The position numbers were made by a program, and so were the translations under genes. This document shows, piece after piece, positions 5,309-63,897 of a DNA stretch of 64,000 nt. The notes under the pieces are model-generated. The model had not been told where the DNA came from, did not search any database, and saw only the letters and a program-made list of their open reading frames with translations. The stretch is from contig JAECQP010000006.1 of NCBI GenBank assembly GCA_015999745.1, positions 30,846 through 94,845 on the forward strand. The letters are read 5' to 3'. The DNA comes from Sphingobacteriia bacterium (GTDB lineage: Bacteria > Bacteroidota > Bacteroidia > Chitinophagales > Chitinophagaceae). Each line of letters begins with the position of its first letter. Position 1 is the stretch's first letter.

Positions 5309-7990
5309 TTTCAGGGATACGCTCAACAGCAGGTAACCTGGAAGCAACCGGTAAGTTGTTGAAGTATACCCGATATCTGAAATCGTGTAATTGCGAAACT
5401 GGTGGGTATTCAGCAGGTTGCGCCCCGCAATTGTAATCCCCAGTTTATTCTTTAACGGGCTAAAGTGAAGATCCACATCACAGAAATAATAGTTGCTGTT
5501 CAGCTGACCGATACCTGCCAAACGGAAGGATTCCGTTTTCAGGTTGAGCTGTAAGTATTTACTGAATTTGAAATGCAGATCAAGAAAGCTCGTAAAGTCT
5601 GAATAACGGGAGGCTGTAGTAGCCATTACCCGATGATACCCCCGGGTGGTTCCTGCATGAACATTGAACCATTTCTTCCAGGCGGAACGGACTTCCAGTC
5701 CTCCATTGAAAAAGGAATGATTGATGTTGCGTAACCCCGATCCATTCACCTCGTTGGTAAAACCAGTACAAACGGTGTTGAGGGTTAATTTGAGATTAGC
5801 GTCAATCGCGGATAGATAATAATCCAGGTTGGAGGTTAAGGTAGCTACCCTGTTATTGTTGGTTAGCATCGCTTCCTGTTGCATATAAGACTGCGCAATT
5901 GTTGAGCGCGTACCATAAGCGGTATAATCGGTATTATACAGCAGTATTACATTGGCAAAGAAACGATCGGCCCAGTTTCCATGCGTAAAGGAAAGAGACA
6001 TAACAGAAGCATCGGGCTGATCAAACCGCGCCGTACCTCTGGTAAATAACCTGTACCCATTCAGTAAATAGTTCCCGAAGATTTCATTGATCTGGCTATT
6101 TCGTTTGTTCAGGGAACAGTTCAATAACAACAAATTCTTCTCCGATAATTTCCACTCTATACCCAAGGCAGGATTTATAAACTGTACCTGCTGTTTGTCT
6201 GCCCGGATACCATCCCGGTAACTATTGCAAAAAGCGTGGATCCCCAGTTGCTGTATCAGGGTAATTTTCCCCAGTTGGTACCGGTGTCTTGCTTTCAAAA
6301 ACAGATCACTGGCAGAAGCATTCAGGTTATTTTGAAAACCATCCGGGCGATCCACCATCAATGATTGGTGCGCTAGTATAAGTTCTGTGCTTAACACATC
6401 TTTCCTGTAGTTTATACCCGCCAGTAGATCCACCAATGATTTTGCAGTGCATTTGGAACTGAGCTTTGACTGAACCGACAGAAACCGCATTTGATGCCTG
6501 GCCGACTGGTAAACCTCATCGGCAGTTCCCGCATTCGGGAAAAGCGGCTGATAATTAAATTGATCAACATGATACTGTTGTGGCGCTTCATCGGATATGA
6601 ATTGAGCAGCAATTTGCCAGAATGATTTCCCGGAAATCCTGCAGGAGAAACGCAGTAACTGCTCATTCGTTACTGTATGCGTTTTTAATGTATCCTGAAT
6701 GGTTTGCTGATTAAACAGCAAATGATTTTGGTTGACTATATTACCCAGTCCAACTTTCATTCCATATTCCAGGATGGTGTTTTCGGACCAGTCGTAAAGC
6801 AGGTTGATTTTCCCGGCCCCGTTCAATACGCGCCGGTCCATATTCAGTGTTTCCATATTCACAAACCGGATTTGATTGATGCCGGCTGAATCGATGGCAG
6901 TGCTGTAAAACCGGTTAAGTTCCCTGTTGAGCTGTAAACTTGTTTTAATGCTCATTTTGCCTGCCGGACGCCAAATCGTATGGACAGCATACAGCCCGGA
7001 ATTATTGCCGGGAGATTTTTTATTCCCCGGCATTGCAGTAGCGCTGATGTTGATCAATTGCACGGCGCTTGGAGGTATTCCGGCAAGATCATCATTCATA
7101 TCTTCTGTAACTTTACTATCCGCCTCATTGGTTTGCAACGGCTGCTCCTCTCCAGTGTTATTCATACTGCCCAGCCAATATTGCCGGAGGCGGTTGTCCA
7201 GTTTAACCAGGTTTATTTTGCCGTCGTAGTATTTACCGGCAACACAGTCAATCCCCGCATCAATATTGCCGAACCATTTATTGGCGACGCCTGGTTTCAT
7301 TTTCAAATTGAGCGCAACTTTATCGCTCTTTACAATTCCCTTCATCAGCCTGTTGGCGGAATAATGTTGCAATATTTCTATTTTACCTATGGGGTGAGGA
7401 GGCATATTCCGGGTAAGTAACCGGTAAGACTTTTCAAAAAAATCATCTCCTTCAATCATTATTTTTTCAACCTCTTTGTTGCCCACTTTCACCGTACCAT
7501 CTTCCATTACCTGTATACCGGGTATTTTTTTCAACAGATCTTCCAATACCCGCTCGTTGCCCTTTGCAAAGGAGCCGGCATCCGCTACTATGGTGTCATT
7601 CCTGATCAGGATTGGCGGAGTGGCGGTTACAATAACTTCGTTCAACACCTTCGTTTCAAATTCCAACACTATATGCTGAAGCAATGCAACTGGCGGCTCT
7701 CCGGGAGGCAGTTTTAACTTTTTGGTTCTGTAAGAAATTGCGCTGAAACAGATACTACAACCTTCTGGAATAACTGCCTTTAAGCTGAAACAGCCGGAAC
7801 CATCCGAAAAACAATATGCGAGCAATTTTGCAGTACTGTCTACCCGGAGTATAACATTGGCAAACGCAACAGGCTGCCCGTATTGATCGGTAATTCTTCC
7901 TGAAAGAACGGTTTGAGCCGTTACATATTCTGTAAACAGTACCGAAATAGCAATCATTAATTTCTTCACGCTATACTTCATTCTTCTCAC
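5303..7990 (-). CDS. Outer membrane beta-barrel protein with carboxypeptidase-like regulatory domain (TonB-receptor related)
   Basis: Signal peptide, LSGRITDQYGQPVAFANVIL domain, plug-like VLEDLLKKIPGIQV, long barrel; overlaps the GLPGLI gene by 4 bp. Confidence 0.8.
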   Translation of the reverse strand: MRRMKYSVKKLMIAISVLFTEYVTAQTVLSGRITDQYGQPVAFANVILRVDSTAKLLAYCFSDGSGCFSLKAVIPEGCSICFSAISYRTKKLKLPPGEPPVALLQHIVLEFETKVLNEVIVTATPPILIRNDTIVADAGSFAKGNERVLEDLLKKIPGIQVMEDGTVKVGNKEVEKIMIEGDDFFEKSYRLLTRNMPPHPIGKIEILQHYSANRLMKGIVKSDKVALNLKMKPGVANKWFGNIDAGIDCVAGKYYDGKINLVKLDNRLRQYWLGSMNNTGEEQPLQTNEADSKVTEDMNDDLAGIPPSAVQLINISATAMPGNKKSPGNNSGLYAVHTIWRPAGKMSIKTSLQLNRELNRFYSTAIDSAGINQIRFVNMETLNMDRRVLNGAGKINLLYDWSENTILEYGMKVGLGNIVNQNHLLFNQQTIQDTLKTHTVTNEQLLRFSCRISGKSFWQIAAQFISDEAPQQYHVDQFNYQPLFPNAGTADEVYQSARHQMRFLSVQSKLSSKCTAKSLVDLLAGINYRKDVLSTELILAHQSLMVDRPDGFQNNLNASASDLFLKARHRYQLGKITLIQQLGIHAFCNSYRDGIRADKQQVQFINPALGIEWKLSEKNLLLLNCSLNKRNSQINEIFGNYLLNGYRLFTRGTARFDQPDASVMSLSFTHGNWADRFFANVILLYNTDYTAYGTRSTIAQSYMQQEAMLTNNNRVATLTSNLDYYLSAIDANLKLTLNTVCTGFTNEVNGSGLRNINHSFFNGGLEVRSAWKKWFNVHAGTTRGYHRVMATTASRYSDFTSFLDLHFKFSKYLQLNLKTESFRLAGIGQLNSNYYFCDVDLHFSPLKNKLGITIAGRNLLNTHQFRNYTISDIGYTSTTYRLLPGYLLLSVSLKL

Positions 7991-46835: not shown

Positions 46836-48152
46836 TTAAGCCCTGCTCATTAAATACGCTTTCAACTGCTCAAAATCTGCCCCTAGCCTGATGCTGTGTT
46901 TTTGCTTTCCTAAAAGTGATTGTGCAGCAGCAGGCATTTCCAGTTTCTTTCCGATAGCCGCCTCTACTGTTTCGGGAAACTTCACCGGATGCGCTGTTTC
47001 AAGGATCATTCCCTTCTGTTCCGGATGGCCCTGCAGGTATTGCTCCAAAGCATGATAAGCAACTGCTCCGTGCGGATCCAGGATATAATGAAAGGACTCG
47101 TACACCTGTTGAATCGTGGCCCTGGTTACTTCATCCGTAACCGTATATCCGCTGATCATCCGGGTGATTGCTTCGTGATCCTTTTGAAATAATTCCAGCA
47201 CCCGTATAAAATTGCTCGGACTGCCTACATCCATGGCATTGGAAATGGTTGCCACAGCTTCCTTAGGCTGATAATGGCCCGTACGTAAATAATCCGGAAC
47301 GGCGTCGTTCACGTTGCATGCGGCAATAAAATGAGCTACCGGTAATCCGCTGGTATACGCCAGTAAGCCCGCACAGATATTTCCGAAATTGCCACTGGGT
47401 ACAGCAATAACGGGCGGATGTTCCTTATCCTTCCATTCCCGGTATGCAAAGAAATAATACAACTGCTGCGGGAGCCATCGTGCCACATTGATGGAATTAG
47501 CAGAGGTAAGTTTGAGCTGCAGATTCAAATCCAGATCCATGAATGCAGATTTCACCATGGCCTGGCAATCGTCGAATGTTCCGTCCACTTCAAGTGCGGT
47601 GATATTCTGTCCGCAGGTTGTTAGTTGTAATTCCTGTACAGGACTCACTTTACCAGATGGATAAAGAATCACCACATCAACGCCTTCCACCCCTAAAAAT
47701 CCGTTGGCTACGGCACCCCCTGTATCTCCGGAAGTTGCAACCAGCACCGTTACTTTAGCAGACTGCCTCCGGGAGAAGTATCCCAGGCACCTGCTCATGA
47801 ACCTGGCGCCAACATCCTTGAACGCAAGTGTTGGACCATGAAACAATTCCAGTGAAGCAATAAATTCATTAACAGGCACCAATGGGAAATCGAAGTTCAC
47901 GGTTTCGGAAACAATCTGGTACAATGCCTCTTCCGTAATGGTATCACCCACATAAGGCAGCATGATCCTGAAAGCCAGCTCTTCTTTTGAATACTGTTCA
48001 ATATGAGCAATCAATGAAGGGTCCGCTTTGGGAATATATTCAGGAAAATAGAGTCCCTTGTCGGGTGCCTGTCCGAGTATGGTTGCCTCCCTGAAACTTA
48101 CGTTGGGAGCCTGTTGATTTAAACTATAATACTGCATAATACTGTTCAGCAA
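46836..48152 (-). CDS. thrC: Threonine synthase
   Basis: YYSLNQQAPNVSFREATILGQAPDKGLYFPE; LFHGPTLAFKDVGARFMSR; VLVATSGDTGGAVANGFLG. Confidence 0.95.
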   Translation of the reverse strand: MLNSIMQYYSLNQQAPNVSFREATILGQAPDKGLYFPEYIPKADPSLIAHIEQYSKEELAFRIMLPYVGDTITEEALYQIVSETVNFDFPLVPVNEFIASLELFHGPTLAFKDVGARFMSRCLGYFSRRQSAKVTVLVATSGDTGGAVANGFLGVEGVDVVILYPSGKVSPVQELQLTTCGQNITALEVDGTFDDCQAMVKSAFMDLDLNLQLKLTSANSINVARWLPQQLYYFFAYREWKDKEHPPVIAVPSGNFGNICAGLLAYTSGLPVAHFIAACNVNDAVPDYLRTGHYQPKEAVATISNAMDVGSPSNFIRVLELFQKDHEAITRMISGYTVTDEVTRATIQQVYESFHYILDPHGAVAYHALEQYLQGHPEQKGMILETAHPVKFPETVEAAIGKKLEMPAAAQSLLGKQKHSIRLGADFEQLKAYLMSRA

Positions 48153-48171
48153 CCTGCATTAGCGTTGCTGT

Positions 48172-49104
48172 TTATTGTTCTATAATGGTAATTCCCTTTG
48201 AATTGATGTTGGTTACATATGTATGGTGGTCCAGTTTTATGGATTCGTATACTGCATGCATTCCCTGTTCTACTTTTTTAGCAGTTTCTTCATCCCTGCT
48301 CAGCATAAAAACGGAAGGGCCGGATCCTGAAATACCTCCGCCCAATGCACCGGCTTCCCGGCTTCTCTTTTTCACCTGGTCGAACCCCGGTATCAGAATA
48401 CTCCTGACAGGCTCAATCAGTACATCTTCAAGTGAACGTCCGATCAGTTCATAGTCCTCTTGCTGCAGGCCGGCAACCAGCCCGGCAATATTGCCCCATT
48501 GTTTGATGGCATCTTTCAGCAGGATCTGTTGTTTCAAAATACTTCTGGCATCGGCTGTGCGAACCTCTATCTGCGGATGTACGATCGTTACAAATAAAGG
48601 CGGTGCATTCAGTTGTATGATATCCAATGGAAAGATGGAACGGATCAGTGTTACTCCTCCGTAGATACAGGGGGCGATATTATCGGCATGCTTTACCCCG
48701 GAAGCTACTTTTTCGCCATTCATGGCAAAGCGCACCAGGTCCTGTTTGCTGAACCGGTGGTCGAGTAAAATATTAGCCGCCATCACAGCTCCCGCAGCGC
48801 TGGCGGCGCTGGAGCCCACGCCACTACCCGGCTTAATCTGCTTATTAATCGTTATCTCCAGCCCCTGTACGTCCGGAGCTTCTTCCAGCAATGCAAGCAA
48901 TGCAGCGCCGGCTACATTTTTCTCCGGCTCTGTAGGCAGGTTGTACTCATCCTCATTAAGAATGGTAATTCCCGGGCGATCGGAAAAACGAATCTTCATG
49001 ATGTCATAAGGATCGTTCACCGCAAAACCCAATACATCAAACCCGCAGACCATATTGGCTACAGTTGCAGGAGCATGTATAGTGATTGATCTGTGCTGGC
49101 TCAT
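48172..49104 (-). CDS. thrB: Homoserine kinase
   Basis: PATVANMVCGFDVLGFAV; IKPGSGVGSSAASAAGAVMAAN; GGGISGSGPSVFML. Confidence 0.95.
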   Translation of the reverse strand: MSQHRSITIHAPATVANMVCGFDVLGFAVNDPYDIMKIRFSDRPGITILNEDEYNLPTEPEKNVAGAALLALLEEAPDVQGLEITINKQIKPGSGVGSSAASAAGAVMAANILLDHRFSKQDLVRFAMNGEKVASGVKHADNIAPCIYGGVTLIRSIFPLDIIQLNAPPLFVTIVHPQIEVRTADARSILKQQILLKDAIKQWGNIAGLVAGLQQEDYELIGRSLEDVLIEPVRSILIPGFDQVKKRSREAGALGGGISGSGPSVFMLSRDEETAKKVEQGMHAVYESIKLDHHTYVTNINSKGITIIEQ

Positions 49105-49128
49105 TGATTAATTGTGTATAATGATTTA

Positions 49129-51573
49129 TTAAACGCCTGCCACCCGGATAATATCTGCAAATACACCGGAAGCGGTAACATCCGCCCCGGCCCCGGCTCC
49201 TTTAATTACCAGCGGCTGCTCCGGATAACGGTCGGTATAAAACAATACCAGGTTATCCTTTCCGTACAGGTGGTAAAAATCGGAATCGGCAGGGATATGC
49301 TGTAATCCCACTTTTGCTTTCCCCTCATCGTAGACGGCCACAAATTTCAGCTTACACTGTTTTTCTTTTGCAGCATTGTAAAGCTGTTTAAAATGAGGCT
49401 CCTGTTTTTCCATCTCGGCGTAAAAATCCGCTACTGAGCCCTCAAAGCAGGAAGCCGGCAGGAAATATTCATTGGTAATATCTTCCATTTCGATTTTCTC
49501 GCCTGCTTCGCGGGCAAGAATCATGATCTTCCGCATCACATCTGTACCTCCCAGGTCCAGGCGCGGATCGGGCTCTGTATATCCTTCATCCTGCGCCCTT
49601 CTTACAATCTGCGCAAAAGGTACGGTGCCATCATAGTAGTTAAACACATAGTTCAGTGTTCCGGAAAGCACAGCCTGTATCTTATTTACCTTATCGCCGC
49701 TGCGAAGCAGGTCGTTCAATGTTCCGATTACAGGCAACCCTGCGCCTACATTGGTTTCAAAGAGGAAAGAGGCATTGTATTCCCTTGCCAGCGATTTCAG
49801 GTGCTTATAGTTGGCATAGGAAGAAGAACAGGCAATTTTGTTGCAGGCAACCACCGAAATGCTTTTCTGCAGCAACTCATTGTATACACCCGCTACTTCT
49901 GCATTTGCCGTAACATCTACAAATACACTGTTCCGCAGATTTCTTTCCGCAATGACTTGTACAAAGGAATGAATATTAGCATCTTCGCCCTGCAGCAACT
50001 GCTCTTTCCAGTTGAGCAGATCTATACCTGCATCATTCAGCAACATTTTTTTACTGTTGGCAATACCCACCACCTGGATCTGCAAACGCAGATGTTCTTT
50101 CAGGTAATTCACCTGCTGGGCAATCTGACCGATCAGTTTTCCACCCACATTACCAGCGCCCGCAATAAATACATTCAGTTGCTTATAAGTGGTCTCAAAG
50201 AAGATCTCATGCAATACGTTGATGGCTTTCTTTACATCATTCGCGGAGAGTACGGCGGAAATATTTTTCTCTGAAGAACCCTGCGCAATGGCCCTGACAT
50301 TGATACCGTTCTTACCCAACACACCAAACATCTTGCCACTGATGCCGGGGTGGCTTTTCATTTGTTCCCCTACCAGCGCAACGATGCTCAGCTCGTTTTC
50401 CACTTTCACCGGTTCTACTTTACCGGTTTCAATTTCGTAGGCAAAAGCCTGGTCGATCGATTGCTGAGCCACAGCACAATCTGATTCACTGATCCCCACA
50501 CAAATAGAATGTTCGGAAGAACTCTGGGTGATCAGGATTACATTAATATTTCTTGCTGCAAGTGTTTCAAAAAGCCGCTTGGAAAAGCCCGGGATCCCTA
50601 TCATACCGCTTCCTTCCAGGCTTAACAGGCTGATGGAATTGATGCTGGAGATACCCCGGATGATTTCATTATCAGAAATCACTTTCTGTTCTATGATGGT
50701 TCCTGCAGCGGCAGGATCAAAAGTGTTTTTAATCCATACCGGGATATTCTTCTTCATCACCGGCTGAATGGTAGGGGGGTAAATAATCTTAGCCCCAAAA
50801 TGAGAGAGCTCCATTGCTTCCTGGTAGGAGATGCGCTCAATATGCTTGGGATGCTGCACCAGTCTTGGATCGGCGGTCATCATACCGCTTACATCAGTCC
50901 ATATTTCAAGGGTTTCCGTTCCAAGCGCTGCCGCATAGATAGCTCCTGTGTAATCCGAACCTCCGCGCCCCAGTGTAGTGGTATGCTTTTGTTCGTTAGC
51001 AGCAATAAAGCCCGGAGCAACATATAGCTGGCAAACGTTTTTCCGAAAATAATCACGGATAGCAGCTTCTGTTTTAGTAAAATTCACCGCCGCATTCCCG
51101 TATTGATCGTTGGTAGTAATCAACCGGCGGGAATCCACCCACTGTTGCTTCACCTGCATGGATTGCAACCTGGCAGAAATAATATAGGAAGACAATAATT
51201 CTCCGTAACTCACCAGGCGGTCTTTGATACGGGGCGAAAGTTCACCCAGCAAAAAGATGCCATCGCAAAGGCTTTCCAGTTCATTCAGCTGCTGTTTTAC
51301 CCAGCTGAGCGTTGCGCTCTGTTCCTGGATCGGCAGCAAACTGCGCACTGCATCGAGGTGTTTTGTTTCCAGCACTCTAATCTGTTGCTTATAATCTTCA
51401 TTGCCATTGGCCGCAAGCGCACCGGTCAGGATCAACTGATCCGTTACACCACCCAGTGCAGAAACCACTAAAACAACCGGGCTCTTCTCTATCGCCCTCA
51501 GTACAATTGCTACAACCCTATTGATGTTCTCCGCATTTGCTACGGAACTTCCTCCAAATTTTAAAACCTGCAT
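49129..51573 (-). CDS. thrA: Bifunctional aspartate kinase/homoserine dehydrogenase
   Basis: MQVLKFGGSSVANAENI; TTLGRGGSDYTGAIYAAALG; IAGAGNVGGKLIGQI; EPDPRLDLGGTDVMRKIMILAREAG. Confidence 0.97.
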   Translation of the reverse strand: MQVLKFGGSSVANAENINRVVAIVLRAIEKSPVVLVVSALGGVTDQLILTGALAANGNEDYKQQIRVLETKHLDAVRSLLPIQEQSATLSWVKQQLNELESLCDGIFLLGELSPRIKDRLVSYGELLSSYIISARLQSMQVKQQWVDSRRLITTNDQYGNAAVNFTKTEAAIRDYFRKNVCQLYVAPGFIAANEQKHTTTLGRGGSDYTGAIYAAALGTETLEIWTDVSGMMTADPRLVQHPKHIERISYQEAMELSHFGAKIIYPPTIQPVMKKNIPVWIKNTFDPAAAGTIIEQKVISDNEIIRGISSINSISLLSLEGSGMIGIPGFSKRLFETLAARNINVILITQSSSEHSICVGISESDCAVAQQSIDQAFAYEIETGKVEPVKVENELSIVALVGEQMKSHPGISGKMFGVLGKNGINVRAIAQGSSEKNISAVLSANDVKKAINVLHEIFFETTYKQLNVFIAGAGNVGGKLIGQIAQQVNYLKEHLRLQIQVVGIANSKKMLLNDAGIDLLNWKEQLLQGEDANIHSFVQVIAERNLRNSVFVDVTANAEVAGVYNELLQKSISVVACNKIACSSSYANYKHLKSLAREYNASFLFETNVGAGLPVIGTLNDLLRSGDKVNKIQAVLSGTLNYVFNYYDGTVPFAQIVRRAQDEGYTEPDPRLDLGGTDVMRKIMILAREAGEKIEMEDITNEYFLPASCFEGSVADFYAEMEKQEPHFKQLYNAAKEKQCKLKFVAVYDEGKAKVGLQHIPADSDFYHLYGKDNLVLFYTDRYPEQPLVIKGAGAGADVTASGVFADIIRVAGV

Positions 51574-51588
51574 ATATCATTCTTAAGT

Positions 51589-52854
51589 TTAAACAAGGTA
51601 TCCGAATACATTGTCATTTTTATCCAGTGGTGTATAATTAATGTGAAACTTCTCCATATTGGCAATCAGCACTGCATAATCTTTATTATGCTGCAACTCA
51701 ATCCCAACCAGCGCCGGAGCGGTTTCCTTGTTGTGTTTCTGCATGTATTCGAACCGGGTGATATCGTCTGTTGGCCCCAATACATGGTTTACAAACTCCT
51801 TCAGGGCGCCGGGACGCTGGGCAAAACGAATCAGAAAATAATGTTTCAACCCCTCATACTGCAGGGAACGTTCCTTGATTTCCTGCATCCTGTCTATATC
51901 ATTATTGCTGCCGCTTACAATACATACAATGGTTTTGCCTTTAATCAGGTCGGCATAATCGTCCAGCACCGCTATGGAAAGCGCACCTGCCGGTTCCACC
52001 ACAATGGCATCTTCATTATACAATTGCAGGATGGTGGAACATACTTTTCCCTCATTTACCAGGTGTACTTCATGCAGTACCTCCCGGCAAATTTCAAAAG
52101 GAAGGTCTCCTACCCGCTTTACGGCGGCTCCGTCTACAAAGCTTTCAATGTTTTCCAGTTTCACGGGATGCCCCGCCTTCAGCGCCGCTGTCATGGAAGG
52201 AGCGCCTTCGGGCTCCACGCCAATCACTTTGGTATGTGGAGCGTTCGCCTTGAAATATGCACCAACCCCTGCGGCCAGTCCTCCGCCTCCCACGGGGGCA
52301 AATACATAATCGATGTCCGACAGGTCTTCCAGAATTTCCTGCGCAACAGTTGCCTGCCCTTCTATGATCCTGGCATGGTCAAAAGGGGGAATAAAAGTCA
52401 TCCCTTTTGCTTCGGTGTATTCCCTGGCTGCAACGGCACAGTCGTCGAATGTATCCCCCACCAGTTTAATTTCTACATTACTGTCTCCAAACATTTTGGT
52501 CTGGCTCACTTTCTGATTGGGGGTAATGATCGGCATAAAAACCACGCCGCTGATATTGAGCTTGCGGCAACTGTATGCAAAACCCTGAGCGTGGTTTCCG
52601 GCACTGGCGCAAACCACGCCCTTTTCCAACTGCTCCGCAGGCAGGTTGCTGATCATATTATAAGCGCCCCTCAATTTATAGGAACGCACTATTTGCAGGT
52701 CTTCCCGCTTCAGAAACACACGACAATGATATTTCCTGGAAAGATTGTTATTATAGGTGAGTGGTGTATGATTCACCACATGCCGCAGTCTTTCTTCTGC
52801 CTCTTTTACTTTCAGGCCATAACCCACCGTTTCATTTGCTGCTACATTTTCCAT
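51589..52854 (-). CDS. ilvA: Threonine ammonia-lyase
   Basis: VFLKREDLQIVRSYKLRGAYNMI; CASAGNHAQGFAYSC; FAPVGGGGLAAGVGAYF; C-terminal ACT-like region. Confidence 0.95.
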   Translation of the reverse strand: MENVAANETVGYGLKVKEAEERLRHVVNHTPLTYNNNLSRKYHCRVFLKREDLQIVRSYKLRGAYNMISNLPAEQLEKGVVCASAGNHAQGFAYSCRKLNISGVVFMPIITPNQKVSQTKMFGDSNVEIKLVGDTFDDCAVAAREYTEAKGMTFIPPFDHARIIEGQATVAQEILEDLSDIDYVFAPVGGGGLAAGVGAYFKANAPHTKVIGVEPEGAPSMTAALKAGHPVKLENIESFVDGAAVKRVGDLPFEICREVLHEVHLVNEGKVCSTILQLYNEDAIVVEPAGALSIAVLDDYADLIKGKTIVCIVSGSNNDIDRMQEIKERSLQYEGLKHYFLIRFAQRPGALKEFVNHVLGPTDDITRFEYMQKHNKETAPALVGIELQHNKDYAVLIANMEKFHINYTPLDKNDNVFGYLV

Positions 52855-52864
52855 AATCTTTTTA

Positions 52865-54349
52865 TCAGGCGTTTGAATGGATTGTTTTCATATCGGTCAT
52901 TGCCTGTCTCAGCTCTTCACCAATCAATTCTACCGGATGATAACGGATCACTGCATTCACTGCAATCAGTGTTTTATTATCTACACCACCATCTTTTCCT
53001 TTATTGTAATTGGTGCCGATTAGATCCGTATCTATTTTCTTCATGAAATCTGCCAGTAACGGTTTGCAGGCATGATCAAACAGGTAACAGCCATATTCTG
53101 CCGTATCGGAAATTACACGGTTCATTTCGTAGAGTTTCTTACGGGCGATGGTGTTGGCAATCAACGGTGTTTCGTGTAATGACTCATAGTAAGCAGACTC
53201 TTCCCTGATTCCTGCTTCTACCATAGTCTCAAATGCAAGTTCAACACCGGACCTTACAAAAGCCACCATCAGCAGCCCATTGTCGAAGAATTCCTGCTCG
53301 GAAATTTTCATAGCGCCCGGCGCTGTTTTTTCAAATGCAGTTTGCCCGGTTGCTTCTCTCCATTTCAGCAGATTCTTATCATCGTTGGCCCAGTCTTCCA
53401 TCATGGTAGAAGAGAAAACACCACTCATGATATCGTCCTGGTGCTTCTGGAACAACGGACGCATGATGTTTTTCAGTTCTTCTGACAGTTCAAATGCCTT
53501 CAGTTTGGCGGGGTTAGACAACCGATCCATCATTGCAGTAATACCACCCTGTTTCAACGCTTCGGTAATGGTTTCCCATCCGTACTGAATCAGTTTGGCA
53601 GCATAAGAAGGATCAATTGCCTTCTCCACCATTTTATCAAAACAAAGAATAGAACCCGTTTGTAATAACCCACAGAGAATGGTTTGTTCTCCCATCAGAT
53701 CGGATTTCACTTCTGCCACAAAAGAGGACTTCAATACACCCGCTCTGTGGCCACCGGTTCCCACACAATAGGCTTTTGCATAATCCCATCCCTTTCCTTC
53801 CGGATCATTTTCCGGGTGAACGGCAATCAGCGTAGGTACACCGAAACCTCTTTTATATTCTTCCCGCACTTCTGTTCCCGGGCATTTAGGCGCTACCATA
53901 ATCACCGTAATATCCTTTCTGATCTGCATGCCTTCCTCCACAATATTAAATCCGTGAGAGTAAGACAGTGTAGCTCCTTTTTTCATCAGTGGCATGATTG
54001 CATTCACCACCGCTGTATGTTGCTTATCGGGCGTAAGGTTGATCACTACATCGGCAGCAGGGATCAGTTCTTCATATGTACCTACGTTAAAATGATTGTC
54101 TGTTGCATTTTTCCAGGAAGCGCGTTTTTGATCAATGGCTTCTTTACGCAATGCATAAGACACGTCCAAACCAGAATCGCGGAGATTCAATCCCTGGTTC
54201 AACCCCTGGGCGCCGCAACCTACAATAACCAGCTTTTTTCCTTTCAAAGCATTTACTCCATCTGCAAATGCAGTTTTGTCCATGAATTCACATACACCTA
54301 ACTGATTGAGTTGCTCGCGCAGTGGTAATGAGTTGAAATAGTTTGCCAT
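52865..54349 (-). CDS. ilvC: Ketol-acid reductoisomerase (long, class II type)
   Basis: [62 protein letters not shown]; 494 aa. Confidence 0.97.
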
Positions 54350-54395
54350 TTTTTATTTTTTAAATTGTTGAATGATTGTTTAGGTTTTATAATGA

Positions 54396-54983
54396 TTACA
54401 TCGTGAATATATCTCTTGGCTGGTCCAGGTATTCGTTCTCCACCAGTTCCTCCGAAGGTTCAACAGCTTCAAACTCTTTCAGTTTTTCGTGGAAGCCGCT
54501 GCTCGCTTTGATAATCGCCACCCTGGCACTCCTGACAAATTCAATCAGCCCATATGGTTCCAGTACACGCACCAGCTTGTCTGTTTCCGCACGTTGCCCG
54601 GTTGTTTCAAAAATCGTATAGTCTTTACGGATCACCACGGCCCTTGCACCACATTCGCGCAGCAGACGCTCTACCTTCATTTTTTCTGCCACGGCATCGG
54701 TGGGCACTTTGTACAATGCCATTTCCTGCCAGATAATCTGATCGTTGGTATTGTAATAAGCCTTCAACACTTCTACCTGCCGTTCAATCTGGCGGCAAAG
54801 CTTACTTACCACTTCTTCCGTTTCATTAATAACAATGGTAAAACGGTGAATGCCCGAAACTTCTGAAGGAGAAACATTCAGGCTTTCCACGTTGATTTTT
54901 CTACGGGAAAATATAATAGCGATCCGGTTCAGTAAACCAACCTGGTTTTCTGTATAAACCGTTATGGTATATTCTGTTTTCAT
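54396..54983 (-). CDS. ilvN: Acetolactate synthase small subunit
   Basis: YTITVYTENQVGLLNRIAIIFSRRKINVESLNVSPSE ACT domain; followed by ilvB. Confidence 0.95.
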   Translation of the reverse strand: MKTEYTITVYTENQVGLLNRIAIIFSRRKINVESLNVSPSEVSGIHRFTIVINETEEVVSKLCRQIERQVEVLKAYYNTNDQIIWQEMALYKVPTDAVAEKMKVERLLRECGARAVVIRKDYTIFETTGQRAETDKLVRVLEPYGLIEFVRSARVAIIKASSGFHEKLKEFEAVEPSEELVENEYLDQPRDIFTM

Positions 54984-54988
54984 GTGCT

Positions 54989-56743
54989 TTATTTTAATCT
55001 GATTTCAGATACACTGCAACCTTGCGGTACCATCGGAAATACATTATTTTCTTTTCCAACAAACACTTCCAGCAGGTAAGCGCCTTTGTGATCCAGCATT
55101 GCCCGGAGCGCCGGTTTCAGGTCTGCACGTTGTTTTACACTGTTGCCTGAAATATCATAGGCTTTGGCCAGCTGTACAAAATCCGGGCTTTGTATATCCA
55201 CAAATGAATACCGCTTGTCGTTGAAGAGTTCCTGCCACTGACGGACCATTCCCAGGAACTGATTATTCAGGATCAATATTTTTACCTCCACCCCTGTTTG
55301 CATAATGGTTCCCAATTCCTGCAAGGTCATTTGAAATCCACCATCGCCGATCACTGCCACCACGGTTCTGTCCGGCGCACCAAACTTGGCGCCAATGGAT
55401 GCGGGTAACGCAAAGCCCATGGTTCCCAACCCTCCGGAAGTGATATTGCTTCTGGACTGGTTAAACCGGGCGTACCGGCAGGCTACCATCTGGTGCTGGC
55501 CCACATCTGTAACAATCACTGCCTCTCCTCCCGTGATCTCATTCAGCAGGTTAATGACTTCGCCCATGCTGAGCACTTCGGTTTTCGGATGCAACTCATC
55601 CGTAATCACGACCTCATTCTCCTGGCGGGTATGCGCACTGAATTGATCCAGCCATTCACTGCGTTGCTGTTCCCGGATCAGTTTGGTCAGCAGGGGTAGT
55701 GTTTCCTTACAATCTCCCCATACAGGCACATCGGCTTTTACATTCTTGTCAATCTCTGCAGGATCTATATCCAGGTGAATAATTTTAGCCTGCCTGGCAT
55801 ATTTGTCGAGCCTTCCCGTAACCCGGTCGTCAAAACGCATCCCTACTGCAATCAGTACATCGCACTCGTTGGTGAGTACATTCGGGCCATAGTTTCCGTG
55901 CATGCCCAGCATCCCCACATTCAGGGGGTGATCTGTAGGCAGTGCGCTTAATCCCAGCAAGGTCCAGGCTGCAGGCAGCCCGCCTTTTTCGATAAAGGCC
56001 CTGAATTCCGTTTCGGCTTTTCCGAGTATTACTCCCTGGCCAAATAAAACGAAAGGCTTTTTGGCTTCGTTGATCAGTTTGGCCGCTTCTTCCACATAGG
56101 CCTTGCGGACAATGGGTTTGGGCCGGTAACTACGGATATGTTCACATTTTTCATATCCTTTATATGCTATTTTCTGCAATTGTGCATTCTTGGTAATGTC
56201 TATCAACACAGGACCAGGGCGGCCGGTGCGGGCAATATAAAATGCCTTTGCCAGCACATGCGGAATTTCTGTTGCATCTGTAATCTGGTAATTCCATTTG
56301 GTTACAGGTGTTGTAATGTTCACCACATCTGTTTCCTGGAATGCATCTGTTCCCAGTAAGTGGGCAAATACCTGTCCTGTAACACAAACCAATGGTGTAC
56401 TGTCGATCATGGCGTCTGCAAGGCCAGTCACCAGGTTGGTAGCGCCGGGGCCGCTGGTAGCAAAAACCACGCCTACCTTACCGCTGCTTCTTGCATAACC
56501 CTGACCCGCATGTATACCTCCCTGTTCGTGACGGACCAGGATATGTTTCAGGCGGTCATTATAATCGTACAGGGCATCATAGATGGGCATAATGGCGCCA
56601 CCGGGATATCCAAAAACGGTATCCACCCCTTCGGCAATAAATGCTTCCAGCACGGCCTGCGAACCGGTCAGTTCAACGGTTTCAGTTCCTTTCAGTGTTA
56701 ACTCCAAAGGAGCTGTTTGTTTTATTTCTGGTACTGTACTCAT
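54989..56743 (-). CDS. ilvB: Acetolactate synthase large subunit
   Basis: VDTVFGYPGGAIMPIYDALY; GVVFATSGPGATNLVTGLADAM; VAVIGDGGFQMTLQELGTI. Confidence 0.97.
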   Translation of the reverse strand: MSTVPEIKQTAPLELTLKGTETVELTGSQAVLEAFIAEGVDTVFGYPGGAIMPIYDALYDYNDRLKHILVRHEQGGIHAGQGYARSSGKVGVVFATSGPGATNLVTGLADAMIDSTPLVCVTGQVFAHLLGTDAFQETDVVNITTPVTKWNYQITDATEIPHVLAKAFYIARTGRPGPVLIDITKNAQLQKIAYKGYEKCEHIRSYRPKPIVRKAYVEEAAKLINEAKKPFVLFGQGVILGKAETEFRAFIEKGGLPAAWTLLGLSALPTDHPLNVGMLGMHGNYGPNVLTNECDVLIAVGMRFDDRVTGRLDKYARQAKIIHLDIDPAEIDKNVKADVPVWGDCKETLPLLTKLIREQQRSEWLDQFSAHTRQENEVVITDELHPKTEVLSMGEVINLLNEITGGEAVIVTDVGQHQMVACRYARFNQSRSNITSGGLGTMGFALPASIGAKFGAPDRTVVAVIGDGGFQMTLQELGTIMQTGVEVKILILNNQFLGMVRQWQELFNDKRYSFVDIQSPDFVQLAKAYDISGNSVKQRADLKPALRAMLDHKGAYLLEVFVGKENNVFPMVPQGCSVSEIRLK

Positions 56744-56765
56744 ACAGGTGATTTTATATTCTTAA

Positions 56766-58445
56766 TTAAGCTTCATCCGTTACACATCCCTGTGATGCAT
56801 CCTTTACAGATTGGGCGTACTTAAACAACAGGCCCTTGCCGGCTCTCAATGCAGGTCTTACCCATTTTGCCTTTCTGGATACCAATACCTCTGCCGCTAC
56901 TTTCAGGGTCATTTTTTTGGTAGACACATTCAGTTCAATCAGGTCATTGTCTTCCACCAACGCTATCAGTCCGCCATTATAAGCTTCGGGAGTAATATGA
57001 CCCACAACAAAACCATGGGTGCCACCACTGAATCTGCCGTCTGTAATCAGGGCAACGGATTTACCCAACCCCGCACCAATGATGGCAGAAGTCGGTTTCA
57101 GCATTTCAGGCATACCGGGGCCGCCCCTCGGGCCAACATAACGGATCACCACTACGTCTCCGGCCTTTATTTTCCCGCTGTTGATGCCTTCGATCAGTTC
57201 ATGTTCTCCGTCAAAAACCCTGGCAGGGCCTTCGAATAATTCACCTTCTTTCCCGCTGATTTTTGCCACGCTTCCGCCTTCTGCAAGATTGCCATACAAG
57301 ATCTGCAGGTGACCGGTTGCTTTCAACGGATTTTCCAGGGGGCGAATAATCTGCTGCTGTTCAAAGTCCAGATCAGGCGCATCCGCCAGGTTCTCAGCAA
57401 CTGTTTTCCCGGTAACCGTTAAGCAATCGCCGTGCAACAGTCCTTTCTTCCATAAATATTTCATCACTGCCGGTATGCCGCCATACTGGTGCAAATCCTG
57501 CATCAGGTATTTTCCACTTGGCTTGAAATCTGCGAGTACAGGCGTTTTATCGCTGATCTGCTGAAAATCGTCTTGCGTAAGTTCAACATCTACACTCTTG
57601 GCCATCGCAATCAGGTGCATTACGGCATTGGTACTTCCGCCCAGGATCATGATGATGGTCATCGCATTTTCAAATGCTTTACGGGTCATGATGTCTTTGG
57701 GCAGAATATTTTTCTCCATCAGTAATTTGATGGCTTTGCCTGCAGCAAGACATTCGTTGTGTTTTTCCTCACTTAAAGCAGGATTGGAAGAAGAGTAAGG
57801 CAGGCTCATGCCCAATGCTTCAATGGCAGAAGCCATGGTATTGGCCGTGTACATTCCGCCACAGGCGCCCGCACCGGGGCAGGCATGCTGTATGATTCCC
57901 TTGAAATCACCTTCATCCAGTTTCCCGGCCATTTTCTGACCCAATGCTTCAAAAGCAGAAACAATATTCAGGTCCTGACCTTTGTAATGCCCCGCAGCAA
58001 TGGTTCCGCCGTACACCATAATCGCCGGACGGTTAAGCCTTCCCATGGCAATGATGGAACCCGGCATATTCTTGTCACAGCCGGGCAGGGCAATAACTGC
58101 ATCGTAGTACTGTGCTCCGCAAACAGCCTCAATTGAATCGGCAATGATGTCACGGCTTACCAATGAGTAGCGCATGCCATCGGTACCGTTGCTGATACCA
58201 TCACTCACACCAATGGTATTGAAGATCAGGCCTACCTGGCCAGATTCCCACACGCCTTTCTTTACCAGTTTGGCCAGGTCGTTCAGGTGCATATTACAGG
58301 TATTACCATCATAGCCCATGCTCACCACGCCCACCTGCGCTTTCTTCAGGTCTTCATCCGTTAAACCAATTCCGTATAACATGGCCTGTGCTGCGGGCTG
58401 TGTAGGATCCTGTGTAATTGTTTTGCTGTATTTGTTCAGTTCCAT
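56766..58445 (-). CDS. ilvD: Dihydroxy-acid dehydratase
   Basis: [78 protein letters not shown]. Confidence 0.98.
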
Positions 58446-58469
58446 ATAAGGAGGCTTCTTTGTTAAGTA

Positions 58470-59348
58470 TTATTGTTCGTGTATCAGGTGCTGGTAGGCT
58501 TTTTGAATGCGTGCACCCAGTGAATCCTTCCATGCTTTCGGAAATACCGTTTCATCGATCGATTCCCAGCCAATCACTTCCGCAGCCGTTCCGCAGAAAA
58601 ATGCGGAGTCTGCCTGTTTCAGGGCCTCCAGGCTGTAACGGCCTTCCTGTATGGGTATATTCAGTCTTTTGCAGATTTCAAATACGGTAGCTCTCGTAAT
58701 GCCCGGCAGAATATATCCCAACTGAGGAGTGTACAATACACCGTCTTTTTCAAAAAAGATATTCGAGCCGGGGCCTTCTGCAATATCATCGTTGATATCA
58801 AGCAGCAGCGCTTCATCAAATCCCTTCGCTTTTGCTTCCTGGCTGGCCAGTATCGAGTTAACATAATGCCCGGCTACTTTTGCGTGCATCTTAAATGCTT
58901 TTGGATTAGGCCGCTGAAAAGAAGAGGTGGCCACACGCAGCAGTTTCTCACCAAGGAACGGCGCCATTTCCCAGGTTTCAATGAACAGAAAAGATTCTGT
59001 ATTCGGCGCAAAACTCATATTGGCCGGTGCATATACTACGGGGCGGATATAAGCGTCCTGCTGGTTATTGCGTTTCAGCACTTCATAGGTTGCAGCAATC
59101 AGCTCGTTTGTATCATAGTTATACGGAAGGTTCACGGTTTGCGCAGAAACTTTAAACCGTTCGTAGTGCTCAACCGGTTTAAAGATTTTTGTTTCACCGG
59201 AAGCGGTTTTGTACGAACGGATTCCTTCAAACACCGAATAACCATAGTGCAGCGACTGGCTATAGAGATCTATTTTCTCCGCCGCCGCTTTTACAAATTC
59301 ACCATTATGGTAAATGATGGTGTCACTGTTATAATATTTCATCTTCAT
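58470..59348 (-). CDS. ilvE: Branched-chain amino acid aminotransferase
   Basis: YSQSLHYGYSVFEGIRSYKTASGETKIFKP; ISEGPGSNIF-type DIAEGPGSNIFFEKDG; GITRATVFEICK; ATG start taken at 59348 (or 59342) because the ORF-track start at 59360 is a GTG next to the terminator. Confidence 0.95.
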   Translation of the reverse strand: MKMKYYNSDTIIYHNGEFVKAAAEKIDLYSQSLHYGYSVFEGIRSYKTASGETKIFKPVEHYERFKVSAQTVNLPYNYDTNELIAATYEVLKRNNQQDAYIRPVVYAPANMSFAPNTESFLFIETWEMAPFLGEKLLRVATSSFQRPNPKAFKMHAKVAGHYVNSILASQEAKAKGFDEALLLDINDDIAEGPGSNIFFEKDGVLYTPQLGYILPGITRATVFEICKRLNIPIQEGRYSLEALKQADSAFFCGTAAEVIGWESIDETVFPKAWKDSLGARIQKAYQHLIHEQ

Positions 59349-59362
59349 TGGTTTATGCACAA

Positions 59363-59392
59363 CAAAAAAGCCCCGCGGATGAGGCGGGGCTT
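59363..59392 (-). terminator. Intrinsic terminator (candidate attenuator) ahead of ilvE
   Basis: Minus strand AAGCCCCGC-CTCATCC-GCGGGGCTT perfect 9-bp stem followed by TTTTGTT. Confidence 0.85.
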
Positions 59393-59413
59393 GTATTTAA
59401 AGTTTTTAATTAT

Positions 59414-59512
59414 TTACAAAAGTCCACCTCCATGCAGTACGGGAATAATAATGACAATCACAATAATGACTGTTGTGACAGATGTGATCGTATTAATTCC
59501 TTTTTTAAACAT
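59414..59512 (-). CDS. Candidate ilv leader peptide, 32 aa: MFKKGINTITSVTTVIIVIVIIIPVLHGGGLL
   Basis: Short ORF in the leuB-ilvE gap absent from the ORF track; 8 Ile, 5 Val, 4 Thr, 3 Leu of 32 residues; ends 22 bp before the terminator stem. Confidence 0.85.
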   Translation of the reverse strand: MFKKGINTITSVTTVIIVIVIIIPVLHGGGLL

Positions 59513-59530
59513 AGAGGGTTGAGTTCTATG

Positions 59531-59561
59531 TAAAGATATGTTTACCCGTTTTTAAAACAAA
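59531..59561 (-). promoter_or_regulatory. Bacteroidota-type promoter for the leader/ilvE transcript
   Basis: Minus strand TTTG-N19-TATCTTTA, close to the TTTG-N19/21-TAnnTTTG consensus (one mismatch), 18 bp before the leader ATG. Confidence 0.65.
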
Positions 59562-59606: not shown

Positions 59607-60719
59607 TCAGATAATGGTGGATGCGTTTAAAACTGCATTGTGCGCGGCTGCGGTCTTCGCATTTCTTTTGATATAATCAGCAATCAGGTCTCCAATGGCA
59701 TTGGTTCCGTAATTATTGATCGGATCAATATCTTTAGACACAAAACTGTGTGTGAGCGTCCAGTTTACGGCCTCCCGAACAGCTTCCGCCTCTTCGGTCA
59801 TACCAAAATGATCCAGCATCATGGCTGCAGACAGCACGGATCCCAACGGATTGGCAATGTCTTTACCTGCTGCCTGCGGATACGATCCGTGAATAGGCTC
59901 GAAAAGGGCGGAACCGTTTCCTACGGATGCGGAAGGCATCATTCCCATAGAACCGGTTAATACACTGGCTTCATCACTGATGATATCGCCGAACATGTTT
60001 TCGGTTAATATAATATCGAACTGTGCGGGATTCAGGATAATCTGCATGGAAGCATTGTCTACATACATATAGTCTACCGTTACATCCGGAAACTGCAACG
60101 CAAGTTCACGTACCACTTTGCGCCAGAGGCGGGAGGTTTCCAATACATTGGCCTTGTCTACCAGGGTCAGTTTCTTTTTGCGCTTCTGTGCATATTGAAA
60201 AGCGGGAATCGCCACCCTTTCTATTTCTGCGCGGCTGTAAGCGCATTCATCAGTAGCATAGGTTTTGTCTTCATTCACCGTTTTCTTACCAAAATAGATA
60301 CCCCCGGTCAGCTCCCTGAAGATCACGCAATCCACGCCTTCCAGCTGTTTGTTTCTCAGCGGAGAAAGATGGTGCAGTGAGTGATAGGTAGATATAGGGC
60401 GGATATTCGCAAACAACTGTAGTTCTTTGCGAAGTTTCAGCAATCCCTGCTCCGGTCTTACGGTGGCAGTGGGATCATTGTCGTATCTGGGATGCCCGAT
60501 GGCGCCAAACAAAATAGCATCGCTCTGCTTACACATTTCCAGTGTTTCATCGGGCAACGGGTTCCCGGTTTTGTCAATTGCATCAGCCCCCATCAGGCCA
60601 TAGGCAAAATGGAACTGGTGATTAAACTCATGTGCAATAGCATTCAATACCTTAATCGACTGTGCCGTCACTTCAGGTCCGATACCATCTCCGTTGATTA
60701 CTGCAATTTTCTTTTCCAT
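59607..60719 (-). CDS. leuB: 3-isopropylmalate dehydrogenase
   Basis: KIAVINGDGIGPEVTAQSIKVL; AILFGAIGHPRYDNDP; TENMFGDIISDEASVLTGSMGMMPSAS. Confidence 0.97.
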   Translation of the reverse strand: MEKKIAVINGDGIGPEVTAQSIKVLNAIAHEFNHQFHFAYGLMGADAIDKTGNPLPDETLEMCKQSDAILFGAIGHPRYDNDPTATVRPEQGLLKLRKELQLFANIRPISTYHSLHHLSPLRNKQLEGVDCVIFRELTGGIYFGKKTVNEDKTYATDECAYSRAEIERVAIPAFQYAQKRKKKLTLVDKANVLETSRLWRKVVRELALQFPDVTVDYMYVDNASMQIILNPAQFDIILTENMFGDIISDEASVLTGSMGMMPSASVGNGSALFEPIHGSYPQAAGKDIANPLGSVLSAAMMLDHFGMTEEAEAVREAVNWTLTHSFVSKDIDPINNYGTNAIGDLIADYIKRNAKTAAAHNAVLNASTII

Positions 60720-60722
60720 ATA

Positions 60723-61307
60723 CTATGCGCTTTCTTTTTCAAATGTTGTAATAGCTGCTCTTCTGCTCAACAGAAAATCGATATCATCATATCCGTTCAG
60801 CAGGCAGGTTTTCTTATACGGATTCAGTTCAAAAGGCTCCTGTTCTCCGGTTGCATCAATGGTGATGGTTTGTTTTTCCACATCTATGCTCAGTGTAGCT
60901 TCGTTGCCCTGTTCAAATATTTTTTGCAGAAAGGGCTCTGAAACCGTTACAGGCAACACACCATTATTCAATGCATTGTTTTTAAAGATGTCTGCAAAAA
61001 AACTGCTGATCACCGCATTGAATCCGTAGTCCTGGAGCGCCCATGCGGCGTGCTCCCTGGAAGATCCGCAACCAAAATTTTTTCCGGCAACCAGTATTTC
61101 TCCGCCGTATATCGAATTGTTCAGGGCAAAATCCGCTTTTGGTTTTGCCTCGTCGTTGTTTTCATAACGCCAGTCGCGGAAAAGGTTCTTGCCAAATCCA
61201 TCGCGCGTGGTCGCTTTTAAAAAACGGGCAGGTATGATCTGATCCGTATCTATATTTTCCATGGGTAATGGAACAAAGCAGCTCTGTATTTTCTGTAATG
61301 CCTTCAC
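60723..61307 (-). CDS. leuD: 3-isopropylmalate dehydratase small subunit
   Basis: [42 protein letters not shown]. Confidence 0.97.
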
Positions 61308-61318
61308 TGTTGAATATT

Positions 61319-62719
61319 TTAAATAAGTTCTCTTATATCCGTTACCACTCCTGTAATTGCTGCAGCGGCAGCAGTCAGCGGGCTTGCCAGTAATGTTCTT
61401 GCGCCTGCACCCTGCCGTCCTTCAAAATTCCGGTTACTGGTACTGATGCAGTATTCTCCCGCGGGAATTTTATCTTCATTCATTCCAAGGCAGGCGCTGC
61501 ATCCGGCCTGCCTGATCTGGAATCCTGCTTCTGCAAAAATGCGATCCAGTCCTTCAGCATGTACCTGCTTAGCCACCTGCTGAGAGCCCGGAACAATCAT
61601 CACTTTCACTGTATCGCTCTTTTTACGCCCCTTCACCAGTTCCGCTATTTCACGCAGGTCTTCAATGCGGGAATTGGTACAGCTGCCGATGAAAACATGC
61701 TGCACGGGCATACCAATCAGGGACGCTCCGCTCTTCAGTCCCATATACTGCAGGGCTTTTTCAATATTTTTCTTCTCCCCTTCATCGTAAATATCATCCA
61801 GCACAGGAATATGGCCATTTACGGCAATCCCTAAACCCGGGTTGGTTCCGTAAGTGATCATCGGATGAATGGCTGCTGCATCAATATTGATTTCTGCATC
61901 AAATACCGCATCTGCATCGGAATAAAGCTCCTGCCATTCGGCCAGTTTCTTATCCCATGCCGCTCCTTTTGGCGCAAATGCCCTGCCTTTTACATATTGA
62001 AACGTGGTTTCATCGGGCGCAATCATCCCGCCCCTTGCACCCATTTCAATACTCATATTACAGATGGTCATCCTGGCTTCCATAGACAGGGATCGAATGG
62101 TACTTCCGGCATATTCAACAAAAAATCCTGTGGCGCCGCTTGCTGAAATTTTTGCAATGATGTACAGGATGATATCTTTCGAAACGACCCCCTTCTGCAA
62201 TGCACCTTCTATATTGATGCGCATCGTTTTGGGCTTTGTCTGCAGCACACATTGTGATGCAAACACCATTTCCACCTCACTGGTCCCGATGCCGAATGCA
62301 ATGGCGCCGAAAGCTCCGTGCGTGGAGGTATGACTGTCTCCGCAAACAATCGTCATGCCGGGTTGTGTAATTCCCAGCTCGGGTCCTATCACGTGAACGA
62401 TTCCCTGGTAAGGATGTCCCAGCCCGTACAATTCAACACCATGCCTGCTGCAATTATTGATGAGTTGCTCTACCTGAATCCTGGAAAGTTCATCCCTGAT
62501 GGGCAGGTGCTGGTTGATGGTAGGCACATTGTGATCGGCTGTTGCAACAGTCTGCTTTGGGCGAAACAATTCAACGCCGCGCTGTTCTATCCCTTTAAAT
62601 GCCTGGGGGCTGGTTACTTCGTGTATAAAATGTTTATCGATATACAGTACAGAAGGTCCGTCAGGAATCTTCTCCACAACATGCTTGTCCCAAATCTTAT
62701 CGAATAATGTTTTTCCCAT
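61319..62719 (-). CDS. leuC: 3-isopropylmalate dehydratase large subunit
   Basis: [88 protein letters not shown]. Confidence 0.98.
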
Positions 62720-62730
62720 TTACTATTTAT

Positions 62731-63897
62731 TTATGCCATGGCGTTTTCTGCAACATGTGCTTCGGCCATCTGTCTTAAATCGTTTTCTTCCACTTCTTTT
62801 TTACCGTCGGCAATTTCCAGGAATCGCTGATACAATGCATCAATATCATTCCTGGTGAACGCGTAACCCAGTTTCTGCAAGCGGTAAGCCAGTGCGCTTC
62901 TCCCGCTTCTTGCAGTCAGTACTATTTTGCTGCCTTCCGCACCAACCTGCTCGGGATTGATGATTTCATAGGTCTGTGCATCTTTCAGGAATCCATCCTG
63001 GTGAATACCGGAGGAATGAGAGAATGCATTGGAACCTACAATGGCTTTATTGGGTTGAACAGGCATGCGCATGGTTTCAGACACTTCGCGGCTTAACGGG
63101 TTGAGCATCTGCGTTTTGATATTGGTATACAACCCCAGGTGTTTGTGTTGCTCAATAATCATTACTACTTCTTCCAAAGAGGTATTACCCGCTCTCTCTC
63201 CCAATCCATTGATGGTGCATTCTATCTGGCGGGCCCCGTTGATCACCCCGCTGATAGAATTGGCGGTAGCCAGCCCGAGATCATTGTGGCAATGACAGGA
63301 AAGAATAGCTTTATCAATATTGGGCACATGGTTCATCAGGTAGGCCATTTTGGCGCCATACTGATCGGGCAGGCAGTAGCCTGTTGTGTCCGGGATATTG
63401 ACCACTGTAGCGCCGGCTGCGATCACCGCTTCCACTACACGGGCCAGGTACTCATTATCGGTACGGCCCGCATCTTCCGCATAAAATTCTACATCATCCG
63501 TAAAATTTCTGGCCCATTTTACCGCCTGGATGGCCCTTGACAGAATTTCTTCGCGGGTGGTATTGAATTTGGATTTGATATGGTAATCGGAAGTGCCGAT
63601 ACCCGTATGAATGCGGGGTCTTACGGCATATTTTAATGCCTGGGCCGCCACTTCAATGTCTTTTTCCACGGCCCTGGTTAGCCCGCAGACCGTTGCATGT
63701 TTGATAACACGTGCAATCTGGGAAACAGATTCAAAGTCGCCGGGGCTGGATACCGGGAAACCCGCTTCAATAATATCAACACCCAGTTCCTCCAGACGTA
63801 AGGCCAGCTCCAGTTTTTCTTTGCTATTTAATTTACAGCCCGGTACCTGCTCACCATCCCGGAGGGTGGTATCGAAAATATAAACCTGTTTTTCCAT
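62731..63897 (-). CDS. leuA: 2-isopropylmalate synthase, short form without C-terminal regulatory domain
   Basis: [75 protein letters not shown]; 388 aa. Confidence 0.93.

Follow-up and report, generated by a model that had tools for sequence, protein, structure and literature searches.

The region upstream of ilvE can be read with high probability as a ribosome-mediated transcription attenuator responding to isoleucine and valine. It is located on the minus strand of the 64,000-nt stretch of DNA that was analysed as a whole (the window), which comes from a genome of 3.03 Mb whose nearest loci are found in Sediminibacterium MAGs (Chitinophagaceae). The individual elements, their conservation, covariation and geometry were taken from sequence and computed folding; from these we infer the transcription start, ribosome stalling, termination in the cell and the extent of the transcript.

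On the minus strand the gene order is leuA-leuC-leuD-leuB, the leader, and ilvE-ilvD-ilvB-ilvN-ilvC-ilvA-thrA-thrB-thrC. The leu ORFs occupy positions 59607..63897, with the end of leuB at 59607, and the ORFs from ilvE to thrC occupy positions 46836..59360. The latter were named from products recognised by sequence and from synteny with relatives. The gaps of 5-46 nt between them suggest that ilvE to thrC may be transcribed as a single RNA, in which case control would reach thrC. Since similarity to the relatives begins at residues 7-9 of ilvE, its start codon is probably ATG 59348 or 59342 and not GTG 59360. No leader module was present upstream of leuA in the loci of 15 relatives.

Leader peptide, terminator and antiterminator

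The promoter-like element (59531..59561) is of the Bacteroidota type and consists of TTTG (59561..59558), a 19-nt spacer and TATCTTTA (59538..59531). Close relatives keep the motif at about equal distance from the leader ATG, and a motif score of at least 9 was reached in most loci vs. about 3% of shuffles. The leader peptide ORF (59414..59512) comprises 32 codons from ATG 59512 and the stop codon TAA 59414, and encodes MFKKGINTITSVTTVIIVIVIIIPVLHGGGLL, in which 20 of the 32 residues are Ile, Val, Thr or Leu. Its codons 15-23 (59444..59470) form the Val/Ile run VIIVIVIII, the putative control codons. The promoter boxes, the ORF, the residue count and the run had all been reported in the preliminary description and hold on direct reading. 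This ORF holds the single instance of nine consecutive RTN codons in the entire genome. A His-run pattern was uninformative, matching the same genome 45 times vs. 29 times for its control pattern.

Across the Chitinophagaceae the leaders keep the initial Met, the Ile/Val run, a Pro and a Gly-rich end, and indels of codon size are present within the leaders of relatives. The leader pN/pS of 0.54-1.21 is consistent with weak purifying selection at the codon level, a range which is based on few close sequences and on partly misaligned Chitinophaga rows. The 32-aa peptide is strongly hydrophobic and its core is conserved, as could be expected of a functional small membrane or type I toxin-like peptide that stands before ilvE by chance. 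Nevertheless, we hold such a function to be extremely unlikely: the N-terminus varies freely, the position of the run follows RNA folding and not a membrane span, and the 18-aa leaders of Chryseobacterium and the 15-20-aa flavobacterial leaders have little in common except Ile/Val codons.

An intrinsic terminator (59364..59392) is located just before ilvE, as had been claimed. Its stem of 9 bp, 7 of them G-C, extends over 59392..59368 as AAGCCCCGC-CTCATCC-GCGGGGCTT, has a folding energy of -16.7 kcal/mol and is followed by a T-tract at 59369..59364. Relatives show compensatory changes, the outer pairs varying on both sides: one pair occurs as C-G (7), A-U (34) or G-C (5), the second as G-C (15) or A-U (24). 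The alignment of relatives, which had been suggested as a check, revealed conservation of both the Ile/Val-rich ORF and the terminator, including this covariation. By its position after leuB the hairpin would end leu transcripts, and it might merely terminate leuACDB, with an incidental ORF and with ilvE transcribed from elsewhere. This is highly improbable, as the hairpin is separated from leuB by a promoter-like motif and the ORF. Furthermore, ORF bias, hairpin pairing and the distance from the run to the switch codon (see below) are conserved even in loci without upstream leu genes (Chitinophaga, Chryseobacterium).

A further element of the attenuator is a pairing that competes with this terminator. 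Pairing of GAGGTGG (59430..59424) with CCGCCTC (59387..59381), including one G-U pair, had been proposed before; it was confirmed and surpassed all of 200 shuffles (p 0.005). The antiterminator is longer than first noted, with 7 + 6 bp, the second helix being formed by TTTGTA (59420..59415) and TACAAG (59395..59390). As assigned by folding and pairing statistics, its 5′ strand (segment 2, 59415..59430) reaches from the Gly-Gly-Gly codons to the stop codon, and its 3′ strand (segment 3, 59381..59395) overlaps the 5′ arm and the loop of the terminator. According to the computed structures, antiterminator and terminator are mutually exclusive.

In the 101 modules that have distinct terminator arms, the duplex between the leader end and its own terminator arm had a mean energy of -16.5 kcal/mol vs. 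-12.1 kcal/mol for permuted partners (z -14.7), and pairing with the own arm was significant by shuffling (p <0.05) in 80 modules. This is an independent test, since the modules were selected on the ORF and the hairpin and not on pairing. The arms themselves vary between families while the pairing is retained: GGAGGTGG with CCGCCTC in Chitinophagaceae, GGAGGATAGG with CCTTCCTCC in Chitinophaga and GGTGGTGAG with CTCACC in Chryseobacterium. The core hardly varies within the Chitinophagaceae, so that covariation of the antiterminator is slight there. At equilibrium the full-length RNA mostly folds with the terminator, so that antitermination must be kinetic.

The full leader folds with a z of -5.1. 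Its start-codon region (segment 1, 59508..59519), a putative protector, can pair with the His-Gly-Gly-Gly codons of the leader, CCCUCUAUG pairing with CAUGGAGGUG from the leader end. Folding and pairing statistics point to this interaction in Chitinophagaceae, with z -8.2 for cognate pairs in 29 surveyed members and z -3.8 in the Chitinophagaceae loci; in Flavobacteria no pairing signal was obtained (z 0.1 and 1.5). When the leader is not translated, segment 1 can occupy the antiterminator strand 59430..59415, which would favour the terminator. In the trp leader of E. coli, stalling at the control codons places the ribosome over segment 1. Here, in contrast, a ribosome stalled in the run leaves segment 1 uncovered, and a following, initiating ribosome would cover it; for this reason the 1:2 and 2:3 pairings may compete.

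The strong structure of the leader could also indicate that another sensor, i.e. a T-box, a riboswitch or an RNA-binding protein, governs the terminator and that the ORF is secondary. We regard this as exceedingly improbable. The leader sequence varies by family whereas codon bias and pairing logic persist, and no Rfam family matched at gathering score. Among the Rfam leader families (Thr, Leu, Phe and Trp leaders) the best match was Phe_leader with 28.9 bits vs. a threshold of 55, and covariance models for T-boxes and riboswitches had no match in the window, in which only a tRNA was detected.

Ribosome position and the amino acids probably sensed

The proposed attenuation would proceed as follows. 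Judging from the promoter motif, the RNA would start some 10-15 nt ahead of the ATG of the leader, and a ribosome would translate the leader behind RNA polymerase. A shortage of Ile- or Val-tRNA would stall the ribosome in codons 15-23 and leave 59430..59415 free for the emerging segment 59395..59381. Once the antiterminator has formed, the terminator would lack its 5′ arm, and RNA polymerase would proceed into ilvE-D-B-N-C-A and probably thrA-B-C. With ample Ile and Val the ribosome would reach the stop codon and cover the Gly-Gly codons and the stop region, and the 9-bp terminator would form. This logic, by which stalling frees and arrival at the stop codon masks the antiterminator strand, had been put forward from the sequence and agrees with folding computed for successive ribosome positions, the leading edge being assumed to lie 12 nt downstream (3′) of the first base in the A site. 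As long as the A site is at one of codons 13-24, an antiterminator of -14.4 kcal/mol can form in the nascent RNA while the 3′ arm of the terminator is still unmade. The value drops to -9.7 at codon 25, to -3.0 at codon 26 and to 0 from codon 29 onward; the last codon of the control run is codon 23.

Indeed, this geometry is conserved. The switch codon was defined as the codon where folding loses the antiterminator, a definition which is independent of the peptide. In 101 of 115 modules the last control codon precedes it by 2-3 codons, and the end of the run correlates with the switch codon (Spearman 0.95). The spread of the run-to-switch distance was 0.81 codons vs. 3.58 after permutation (minimum of 2.86 in 5000 permutations), although modules of one family share kinship and the p-value does not correspond to a count of independent events. 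From the end of the run to the last sense codon there are about 8-9 codons in Chitinophagaceae, 6 in Chitinophaga and 3-4 in Flavobacteria, and the antiterminator strand shifts along. Within the folding model, this geometry is the strongest single evidence for attenuation. With more than 100 natural modules, a fixed lag of 2-3 codons between the end of the control run and masking of the antiterminator can be tested quantitatively.

By position and conservation, the leader very probably senses Ile and Val. Control by Ile/Val and perhaps by Thr or Leu supply had been suggested; the Ile/Val part is supported by conservation, covariation, cognate pairing and geometry, while the Leu and Thr parts are weaker. 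In the ribosome model sensing of Leu is unlikely, because its codons (26, 31 and 32) lie at or past the masking point, with little or nothing of the antiterminator left. Sensing of Thr is possible, since a ribosome at Thr codons 13-14 would leave the antiterminator free; in relatives, the presence of Thr codons in the leader does not clearly go with a neighbouring thr operon.

The idea that control codons generally follow operon content found no support from the comparison of Leu or Thr codons in relatives. Chryseobacterium leaders contain Leu codons and leuA was not found downstream, except perhaps in one locus (L047). The thr genes adjoin ilvA only in loci of the Sediminibacterium type, and a locus lacking them (L021) has three Thr codons in its leader.

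Relation to known leaders

Attenuation of the E. coli ilv leader by branched-chain amino acids is well established. Like the leader studied here, IlvL of the ilvXGMEDA operon (MG1655; L232:1823-1921) has 32 aa, with Val and Ile densely clustered before a Pro (MTALLRVISLVVISVVVIIIPPCGAALGRGKA; VVVIIIP), and a strong T-tailed terminator (-21.3 kcal/mol) precedes the ilv genes. Unlike ilvL, our leader belongs to another phylum, has another RNA sequence without Rfam match, carries Leu outside the controlling position and is followed by thr genes. IlvL and the Chitinophagaceae leaders are alike in length (about 32 aa), in closing their V/I run with IIIP and in having Gly in the tail. Peptide alignment to IlvL surpassed shuffled sequences for some relatives (L011 with a score of 53 vs. 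31, sd 4.8) but weakly for the window peptide, whose score was reached by 6 of 200 shuffles, both for only 32 residues of biased composition. Such composition and the shared function allow for convergence, and the likeness may be due either to this or to common descent.

The mechanism is known from enterobacterial amino acid leaders and the new aspect is its ilv instance in Bacteroidota, within the scope of a literature search that found no description of such a leader and for which most subscription papers were outside reach. The abstract of Vitreschak 2004 reportedly mentions Bacteroidetes/Chlorobi, so that attenuators of Bacteroidota may first have been described in that study. For B. thetaiotaomicron, sORFs in 5′ UTRs were described and leader-peptide attenuation was suggested (PMC7366714). 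It was also suggested for Flavobacterium psychrophilum, where pheA and hisG are among the conserved 5′ elements, ilv being absent from the main text of that report (PMC9723704). Bacteroid-trp (RF01692) has been proposed as a cis-regulatory RNA of Bacteroidetes and takes its name from trp (PMC2864571); it differs in operon and sequence and had no match in the genome studied here. The ilvB-II and ilvB-OMG motifs comprise branched-chain-rich leader ORFs before ilvB with attenuation logic (PMC10272879), but they stem from Corynebacterium or various phyla and differ in sequence and gene order.

Distribution and tandem modules

In nearly all of 61 ilvE loci from public genomes, with Sediminibacterium, Terrimonas, Chitinophaga and Chryseobacterium among them, ilvE is preceded by a short Ile/Val-rich ORF and then a T-tailed hairpin. 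This arrangement is clearly lacking in L040 and L044, and in L009, L015 and L017, where leuB almost abuts ilvE. Exactly one module upstream of ilvD was detected in 31 of 43 sampled Chitinophagaceae genera and none in the other 12, six of which have a leuB-ilv gap of ≤126 nt (L191, L196, L197, L204, L205, L206). Where leuB and ilvE or ilvD almost adjoin (L009, L015, L017; L191, L196, L205), the module is missing as if it had been deleted together with the gap. Outside the Chitinophagaceae, at least one module was found in 29 of 53 regions of a family that appears to be flavobacterial-type (f5), and one module each in all three sampled genomes of a family from another class (f23); 13 other families, represented by one region each, showed none. 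With strict settings there were 0 matches in 210 shuffled regions and 0 on reverse strands, with the looser survey settings 1 in 228 shuffles and 12 on reverse strands. Classical Ile/Val attenuation, best known in enteric bacteria, would be a common regulator of ilv operons in a large phylum with few described attenuators.

Several flavobacterial relatives carry more than one module. In Oceanihabitans sediminis (L046), ilvE is preceded by three consecutive modules of leader and terminator (locus positions 5480-6010), and five loci have two (L105, L106, L140, L146, L152). Two are also present in L164, with a weaker first leader, and in L117, where the contig end cuts the first leader. The tandem modules mostly show the same run-to-switch geometry, with no clear switch in the second modules of L146 and L152. 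We know of no earlier example of leader attenuators of the same specificity in series. The two leaders of the Salmonella mgtCBR tandem sense ATP and proline. This tandem, in which one operon is preceded by two consecutive leader ORFs, was the only one that came up in the literature search (PMC3641672); it combines two different signals, whereas the flavobacterial tandems repeat one specificity and are a natural experiment on serial attenuators. We consider it an evenly balanced question whether two things hold together: that Bacteroidota possess an independently built class of branched-chain attenuators, with Gly-Gly codons and stop codon as left antiterminator arm and a start-codon protector in Chitinophagaceae, and that some flavobacteria multiplied it to two or three modules of the same specificity, which would give a steeper response or a lower basal level.

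Two minor observations concern individual lineages. Among the f5 terminators (L106, L140, L150, L159, L164) two module types recur, with arms of the GCCTTCC type and of the GCCTGTATCA type, and the latter stands second in most tandems. In Chryseobacterium arachidis (L059) a sense codon replaces the usual stop codon of the leader, and the frame ends 14 nt before the terminator.
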